A stretch of DNA of 33,773 nt from Candidatus Saccharimonadales bacterium (lineage in GTDB: Bacteria; Patescibacteriota; Saccharimonadia; Saccharimonadales; Saccharimonadaceae). The position numbers and the translations under genes were made by a program. Positions within the stretch are counted from its first letter, which is position 1. Each line of letters begins with the position of its first letter. A model generated the notes under the pieces. It was given only the letters and a program-made list of their open reading frames with translations. It ran no database searches and was not told the DNA's origin. Positions 15,902 to 17,425 of the stretch are shown in pieces. Where the stretch lies: the NCBI GenBank assembly GCA_035317825.1, contig DATHGB010000008.1, forward strand, positions 1 to 33,773, written 5' to 3'.

Positions 15902-16801
15902 ATGGCAAAGTTTAATCAATACACAATGCAAGACCCTGTGACACAGTATTCAAAGATGGATATACCCGAGCAACGACAGATCGAACCAGGTCTTGATGCT
16001 GAACTTATTCCAAAAGCAGATCACGGGGAAGAAACATACGAGGGCAGCGGACGATTAAAAGGCAGAAAAGCGCTGATCACTGGAGCCGATTCGGGTATTG
16101 GTCGCGCCGTAGCAATCGCTTACGCTCGCGAAGGTGCGGACATCGTACTTAATTACTTACCGAGCGAGGAAGCTGATGCCAAAGAAGTCGTTGCTTTGAT
16201 TGAAGCAGCAGGCCAAAAAGCGGTTGCGTGTCCTGGTGATATTAGTAATGAGGATTTTTGTAAACAATTAGTTAAAACTGCAGCAAAAGAACTCGGTTCA
16301 ATTGATATCTTAGTTAATAACGCTGGTAAGCAAATATACGTTGAGTCTCTAGAAGAGTTGACAACCGAGCAGCTACAGCAAACGTACACCGTGAATGTTT
16401 TTGCAATGTTTTGGATCACAAAGGCAGCCATAAAACATATGCCAAGGGGTGCGACGATCATCAACACGACGTCCATTCAGGCATATCAGCCGTCGAAAGG
16501 GTTGCTAGATTATGCCAGTACCAAAGCAGCAATAGCTAACTTTACTCATGGCCTAGGCAAGCAGCTGGCTTCAAGAGGTATTCGCGTAAATGGTGTGGCG
16601 CCAGGGCCAATATGGACTCCGCTTCAACCAAGTTATGGTCAGCCTATGGAAAAACTAACGAAGTTTGGCCAGAGCACTCCCCTCGGACGCGCGGGGCAGC
16701 CGGCTGAGCTAGCACCGACTTATGTCTTTTTGGCTTCGCAGGAATCAAGTTATATCACAGGGGAGATTATTGGAGTGACTGGCGGCAATCATCTGCCATA
16801 A
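15902..16801 (+). CDS. SDR-family oxidoreductase (general-stress / glucose dehydrogenase-like type)
   Basis: A 299-residue classical short-chain dehydrogenase with the N-terminal extension (1-50, with [11 protein letters not shown]) seen in the YghA/YhxC/GSP39-type subgroup. The cofactor motif TGADSGIG is at 60-67, LVNNAG at 137-142, and the catalytic triad is S191 (NTTSIQAY), Y204 and K208 (YASTK). It probably reduces or oxidises small carbonyl compounds with NAD(P); the substrate is not predictable. The start at 15902 has AAGGAGG. It completes a stress-type group with GlsB-like and ChaB proteins. Downstream lies a structured intergenic region. Confidence 0.93.
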
Positions 16802-16811
16802 GTAAGAGAAT

Positions 16812-16870
16812 GCACTAGCTTTCGTCCTCAAAGGACTTATTATCGTATTACATAAATACGGAGCTAGTGC
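16812..16870 (-). other. Three-way-junction element between convergent genes
   Basis: Outer stem GCACTAGCT (16812-16820) with AGCTAGTGC (16862-16870). Inside are two hairpins: GTCCT/AGGAC (16824-16828, 16832-16836, loop of 3) and CGTATT/AATACG (16844-16849, 16855-16860, loop of 5). Read on the minus strand, the order of stems and the GAAA between the second hairpin and the outer stem copy a type III hammerhead ribozyme, but the CUGAUGA strand is replaced by AUAAUAA, so activity is not expected. It may be a structured 3' untranslated region or a degenerate ribozyme. Confidence 0.5.
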
Positions 16871-16879
16871 GAGAGGATT

Positions 16880-16935
16880 GATGCGGGAGTGCGCCTCCGG
16901 TCACCGTATGGCAGCCGGGGCGCATCTCCACCACA
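16880..16935 (-). other. Long GC-rich bulged hairpin at the 3' end of the orphan gene
   Basis: TGATG pairs with CATCA, GGAG with CTCC, TGCGCC with GGCGCA and CCGG with CCGG, with single-base bulges and a 14-base loop. It lies directly after the TGA of the minus-strand orphan. No U-tract follows. Confidence 0.5.
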
Positions 16936-17292
16936 TCAGATGGGACTTGGTGTGATCAAGGTGATAGGCGATGATGTCTCCAGGATCTCACCGTCTTTGT
17001 CTAGGATCAACAGAAGCTGCCGATCAGGGTAGAGCTTGATGGTGGACGCCCGAGGGATGTCCTCGCGATTGACGCTCACCCTCTTGAGGGGGAAAGATAT
17101 CCAGAGTAGAGCATTCTGGTCTCCCGAGCTCGATTCCCTCAGCATCTGCTGGGGCATACCTTCTACCCAGAAGACCTCGTAGTCTTCGCCGCGTGCTGAG
17201 AAGGTTAAGACAGGGTTATTCCTGAACTCAGCACGTACGAGAGCTTCTACGAGCTCCGGGAGAGTGTCGCCCAATGCAATAGGGTCACCCAT
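16936..17292 (-). CDS. GC-rich orphan protein
   Basis: 118 residues from ATG 17292, chosen because of a GAGAGGA Shine-Dalgarno; a longer open frame to 17364 would read through the promoter and operator. The product (MGDPIALGDTLPELVEALVR at the start) is soluble, acidic, and contains a likely beta-rich centre (PVLTFSARGEDYEVFWVEG, IKLYPDRQLLLILDKDGEIL). No family was recognised. It ends in TGA, otherwise seen here only on the PBP and a doubtful ORF, and its codons are G/C-rich at third positions, so recent transfer is plausible. It has its own promoter with a double palindrome and is divergent from clpC. Confidence 0.65.
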   Translation of the reverse strand: MGDPIALGDTLPELVEALVRAEFRNNPVLTFSARGEDYEVFWVEGMPQQMLRESSSGDQNALLWISFPLKRVSVNREDIPRASTIKLYPDRQLLLILDKDGEILETSSPITLITPSPI

Positions 17293-17335: not shown

Positions 17336-17364
17336 ATTATGACAATTTGCGGTATGCTCGTCAA
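17336..17364 (-). promoter_or_regulatory. Promoter of the orphan gene
   Basis: Minus strand TTGACG (17364-17359), 17 bases, CATAAT (17341-17336) preceded by TGT. The start of transcription is expected at about 17329. Confidence 0.7.
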
Positions 17365-17385
17365 TTTGAAGAGGCTAAAAATAAA

Positions 17386-17412
17386 TTAGCACTCTCTTGA
17401 CCCGAGTGCTAA
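17386..17412 (+). promoter_or_regulatory. CIRCE operator (HrcA-binding site) upstream of clpC
   Basis: TTAGCACTC-N9-GAGTGCTAA, identical to the CIRCE consensus on both arms. It covers the -35 of the clpC promoter, the position expected for HrcA repression. Heat-shock control by HrcA is established for this element in other bacteria. Confidence 0.95.
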
Positions 17413-17425
17413 TTTTTCATACAAT
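17397..17425 (+). promoter_or_regulatory. clpC promoter P1
   Basis: TTGACC (17397-17402), 17 bases, TACAAT (17420-17425). The start of transcription is near 17432, giving a leader of about 60 nt with AAGGAGG at 17470-17476. Confidence 0.8.

Follow-up and report, generated by a model that had tools for sequence, protein, structure and literature searches.

Phage "moron" genes are autonomous units that carry their own promoter and 3'-end signal, have a foreign composition and lie between unrelated genes. In prophages, hammerhead ribozymes flank single genes or occur in tandem, and Perreault et al. (2011, PMC3088659) suggested that their cuts divide phage transcripts into mRNAs the length of one gene. 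Among open-access papers, we found none that joins hammerheads with Patescibacteria/CPR.

Here we describe an RNA structure of 59 bases, found at the end of a gene that appears foreign to the ~1-Mb genome of a Candidatus Saccharimonadales bacterium. It occupies positions 16812-16870 of the minus strand of the window, i.e., the whole 33,773-nucleotide stretch of contig DATHGB010000008.1 that was analysed. Almost certainly, the element is a hammerhead ribozyme whose cutting residues are gone but whose fold is kept. The hammerheads considered here resemble those of prophages in being placed after single genes or in tandem. In contrast to those, they are found in the chromosomes of ~1-Mb genomes, behind GC-rich orphan genes and with a hairpin just upstream, and the window copy lacks the core. 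The gene in front of the element resembles a moron in its promoter-like site, 3'-end signal, foreign composition and unrelated neighbours; it differs in that its 3' end consists of a hairpin and a hammerhead instead of an intrinsic terminator, and in that no phage relative of the orphan was found.

Results

The minus strand, read from 16870 to 16812, is GCACTAGCT C CGTATT TATGT AATACG ATAATAA GTCCT TTG AGGAC GAA AGCTAGTGC, and matches the plan of a type III hammerhead segment by segment, in layout, in segment lengths and in all three stems (Table 1). Stems III, I and II have 9, 6 and 5 bp (20 pairs in total, the U16.1-A15.1 pair being counted in stem III). GAAA is present with its A15.1-U16.1 pair, and the C at 16861 agrees with the rule that H17 is not G. 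The seven-base strand between stems I and II is the sole departure from the plan: CUGANGA is absent there and AUAAUAA stands in its place, with A at C3, G5 and G8 alike. Folding of 16800-16885 on the minus strand gave the hammerhead-like junction as both the minimum-free-energy and the centroid structure (-23.9 kcal/mol, z -3.8), and 0 of 200 shuffles folded as well; the fold is the second most stable among the 32 hammerhead sites described below. The preliminary description, made from the DNA letters, had proposed this three-way junction at the same place and strand, with the same stems, UH position, GAAA and replacement of CUGAUGA at C3, G5 and G8, and our analysis confirms it on each of these points. 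The plus strand also folds (-24.8, z -3.1), without hammerhead elements.

Table 1. Positions of the junction element, its parts and the associated orphan gene features in the window.
Feature	Position	Strand	Basis
Whole degenerate type III hammerhead (three-way junction)	16812..16870	-	folding, spacing descriptor, core-blind covariance model
Stem III 5' arm GCACTAGCT, last base = U16.1	16862..16870	-	sequence
C17, would-be cleavage position (H17)	16861..16861	-	sequence
Stem I CGTATT/AATACG with loop; includes UAUGUA (loop I motif URUGUA)	16844..16860	-	
AUAAUAA where CUGANGA is expected (C3A, G5A, G8A)	16837..16843	-	
Stem II GTCCT/AGGAC, loop TTG	16824..16836	-	
GAAA (G12, A13, A14, A15.1)	16820..16823	-	
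Stem III 3' arm AGCTAGTGC; first base = A15.1 of GAAA	16812..16820	-	
Strong hairpin, 25 bp, about -38 kcal/mol, at/after the orphan stop codon and before the junction	16879..16938	-	
Orphan ORF P0001, 118 aa, GC 0.54, GC3 0.65 vs 0.42 in neighbours, no family match	16936..17292	-	
Promoter-like TTGACG-N17-CATAAT, extended -10, upstream of the orphan	17336..17364	-	pattern match only

A descriptor of hammerhead spacing matched the window once, at this element. Order-1 shuffles of the window, 94.6 Mb in total, contained 81 loose layouts, two of them with at least 20 pairs, and none with at least 9, 6 and 5 bp in stems III, I and II. The chance expectation is therefore ~0.02 per 1.1-Mb genome, before the position of the element is weighed.

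The Infernal search with Rfam Hammerhead_3 (RF00008) that had been suggested as a check did not report the window element, either at the gathering cut-off or at E<=10. This is as expected because C3, G5 and G8 are lost; the intact relatives likewise score under 48.5 bits with this model. We next used a core-blind covariance model. It was built from 18 intact hammerheads, the window element not among them, and both the seven-base strand and the loops were masked. The model matches 16816-16866 on the minus strand with 26.3 bits and, on a short calibration that makes its E-values rough, an E-value of 5e-6 for the window (~2e-4 when scaled to the genome), the next best match in the window having 0.14. 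This match identifies the element as a hammerhead relative rather than a chance repeat.

Relatives with an intact CUGAUGA, which the preliminary description proposed to look for, occur both in the window's own genome and more widely in the phylum; the absence of homologous junctions elsewhere, which it had named as refuting its reading, is thus not what we observed. The RF00008 search of 287 phylum genomes gave matches in 21 at E<=0.1, many with a textbook CUGAUGA core. The window's own genome carries an intact type III hammerhead (G000:C5:21273-21323; L022 1501-1551), which shares the loop I motif URUGUA and GTCC/GGAC-GAAA with the window element. URUGUA recurs in a few other intact copies, and GTCC..GGAC is the usual stem II of the intact relatives. 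The window element is like Hammerhead_3 in being open at stem III, with hairpins on stems I and II, the UH position, GAAA with A15.1-U16.1 and a GTCC/GGAC stem II; it differs in having AUAAUAA for CUGANGA, in escaping the Rfam model and in its expected lack of cleavage. No convincing second copy of the DNA turned up in the genome, nor did a single-sequence model find a convincing similar junction among 100 genomes of the family (best E 0.27).

Published mutagenesis showed that substitution of C3, G5 or G8 each lowers hammerhead activity more than 100-fold, and that G5A is inactive (PMC4075628). With all three positions changed to A, self-cleavage of the window RNA is therefore not expected. 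A genome-wide search with the core-blind model, run through a coarse filter, missed the window element itself; its negative counts thus say little about degenerate copies, and a pattern survey was used instead. The pattern left C3, G5, N7 and G8 open and required a GTCC stem II, U4, A6 and A9. It matched 23 places over 380 genomes (5 for the reversed control pattern), and among the matches able to form all three stems the window element is the only one without an intact core. A pattern with AUAAUAA and GTCC..GGACGAAA gave 10 matches in ~85,000 species genomes, about the number expected by chance and none forming stems I and III, and 0 matches in viral contigs. Since no second folding AUAAUAA junction was found, the window element is a singleton and does not represent a family of such junctions, and its decay is for that reason not traceable through intermediates.

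If three of the 59 positions were changed at random, the probability of hitting exactly C3, G5 and G8 would be 3e-5, and that of hitting the seven-base strand 1e-3; both figures are after-the-fact arithmetic, as the ancestral stems are not known and compensated changes are invisible. Slippage could have produced AUAAUAA in fewer steps, as it is a TAA repeat. That all three changes fall on catalytic bases and no pair is broken hints at constraint on the stems, short of proof.

The element lies between two convergent genes, 10 bp past the stop codon of an SDR dehydrogenase gene (plus strand, 15902-16801) and within the 3' UTR of the orphan (minus strand, 16936-17292), which bears out the location given in the preliminary description. 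A GC3 as high as that of the orphan occurs in 0 of 121 chunks of 118 codons from 21 neighbouring genes. No relatives of the orphan were found in 100 genomes, viral contigs or phages, and Pfam, PHROGs and PADLOC returned nothing for it. Two weak plasmid matches, inside a transposase gene, were judged to be chance. A structure prediction without alignment reached a pLDDT of 40 and was not used. A search for an empty site through the SDR neighbours showed none, because the SDR-clpC order is not conserved in relatives. The hairpin behind the orphan (z -3.8) ends 8 nt before stem III in its longest fold, compared with the usual 0-5 nt; no perfect stem abuts stem III in the window, and the hairpin lies beyond the 5-nt limit used below. 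A terminator search of both strands found only an internal match at stem II and none spanning the whole element. A perfect 12-bp inverted repeat, TTAGCACTC-N9-GAGTGCTAA, lies at 17383-17415, just upstream of clpC (17492); we take it to be the CIRCE operator consensus, suggesting that clpC is under HrcA control.

We compared 32 hammerhead sites of the phylum, a set that includes the window and some related loci and is thus not fully independent. The 330 bases upstream have a mean GC content of 52%, versus 42% downstream, and GC is higher upstream at 29 of the 32, the window included (Wilcoxon p 3e-6). All 32 sites have an ORF in the same sense, 40 codons or longer, that ends upstream. These ORFs are diverse: NUDIX, histidine phosphatase and MoxR-like ATPase proteins are found, with weak matches to DnaJ and a response regulator, and many have no known function. 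A stable hairpin is usually found between ORF and ribozyme (mean z -2.8 upstream versus -1.0 downstream), and by folding the last hairpin ends <=5 nt from stem III at 25 of 32 sites. Because random positions also score fairly often on this measure, a stricter one was adopted, a perfect stem of at least 6 bp ending at stem III. Such a hairpin occurs at 26% of the phylum sites and at 65% of 43 viral-contig sites, against 6% of random positions (Fisher p 4e-4 and 2e-23, respectively). In intact modules, the predicted cut would fall ~4 to 12 nt past the hairpin base at most sites. The viral contigs have no clear GC contrast around their hammerheads (p 0.05), as expected if phage genes lie on both sides. 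That intact hammerheads follow GC-rich orphan genes at their 3' ends is thus a wider pattern in the phylum, and the window orphan fits it.

Several individual loci deserve mention. In the window's own genome, the intact hammerhead follows a small ORF that looks membrane-like; it lies ~210 bp upstream of an EF-G-like gene. A tandem ORF array in another genome (L043 2100-5340, G264:C16) has a hammerhead after each ORF, and two further copies there, near 2120 and 3708, have a CCGATGA (U4C) core. In a third (L034 4600-8930, G305:C32), cassette-like genes are separated by imperfect palindromes, GTTCTAACATCC...GGATGTAGAAC, which recall the attC sites of integrons. A hammerhead ends some of these cassettes, and an ordinary terminator another. 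Elsewhere an intact hammerhead stops one base before the start codon of an rlmH-like gene (L032 6714-6768, G034:C1). Among viral contigs, nearly all genes of one from IMG/VR (L145 1890-4200) are followed by a hammerhead-like element that appears to be of type II, and in most of those tested among L084-L203 a hairpin abuts the type III stem III, ~30 nt past the ORF.

Discussion

We conclude, with a probability of about 0.8, that the element descends from a type III hammerhead, is catalytically dead and forms the 3'-end part of a self-contained module that carries a foreign gene. Such a module would comprise a promoter-like site, a GC-rich ORF, a strong hairpin and a hammerhead. Where the module is intact, cleavage by the ribozyme would fall a few bases past the hairpin, so that the foreign mRNA would receive a defined 3' end, capped by the hairpin, with no need of a terminator or of host termination signals. 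The end left, a hairpin and a short tail, would be much like the product of an intrinsic terminator. In the window copy, cutting would have been lost, while the 20 pairs, the UH position and GAAA remain. Of the options raised in the preliminary description, that of a degenerate ribozyme is well supported, and that of a hammerhead-derived 3'-end structure is compatible with it.

Our analysis shows the junction layout, the homology to intact hammerheads, the foreign composition of the gene and the module layout common to the sites. Loss of cleavage would follow from the published mutagenesis, 3'-end formation is the function that we propose for the intact copies, and the window element may retain a structural role. 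The module may be decaying with its fold not yet broken, or the fold may still serve as, and protect, the 3' end of the orphan transcript. If still in use, the folded junction is perhaps also a 3' end for the convergent SDR gene. Tentatively, hairpin and hammerhead together could be a portable 3' end that replaces the terminator of genes acquired horizontally by the phylum, the window copy being one in which cutting was switched off and the fold selected as a protective structure, a ribozyme turned structural RNA; we consider this fuller account doubtful.

The best surviving alternative, itself unlikely, is a structural 3'-end element that is unrelated to hammerheads by descent, resembles them by convergence and acts as a bidirectional stabiliser or weak terminator for both convergent genes. 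Its place close behind the SDR stop codon and inside the orphan 3' UTR, the folding of both strands and the moderately U-rich minus-strand tail ATTCTCTTACTT are consistent with such an element; however, convergence would have to account for hammerhead spacing at every segment, GAAA, U16.1-A15.1, H17, the usual stem II and the loop I motif, as well as for the core-blind match, and no terminator-like site spans the whole element.

We give still less weight to a DNA-level site of gene-cassette movement, at which the folded strand and not the RNA would matter. Hammerheads do stand at the 3' ends of foreign genes, and tandem gene arrays contain them as well. Yet the cassettes of G305 have separate imperfect palindromes between them, some without a hammerhead, and the intact relatives keep a ribozyme core, for which a DNA site would have no use.

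Continued cleavage with the AUAAUAA core, in a hammerhead variant rescued by its strong stems and loop contacts, is also very improbable. All other elements are intact, the fold is among the most stable, and rare natural core variants are active (PMC3088659). Against this, activity falls more than 100-fold on substitution of any one of C3, G5 and G8 (PMC4075628), G8 is lost even under a shifted alignment of the junction strand, and no relative with an AUAAUAA core was found that could show purifying selection.

A chance inverted repeat with two hairpins is the least credible reading: no identical or similar DNA was found elsewhere in the genome or family, but equal layouts are absent from the 94.6 Mb of shuffles, an independent core-blind model matches the element, and it stands in the expected place behind a GC-rich orphan.

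The role of bacterial hammerheads is still open. Their consistent place behind single GC-rich orphans, with a hairpin before the cut, suggests a testable role, namely that ribozyme-made mRNA 3' ends travel with foreign genes. A natural copy in which the catalytic residues alone are lost is a ready-made control for this idea, one that would reveal if there is value in keeping the fold by itself.
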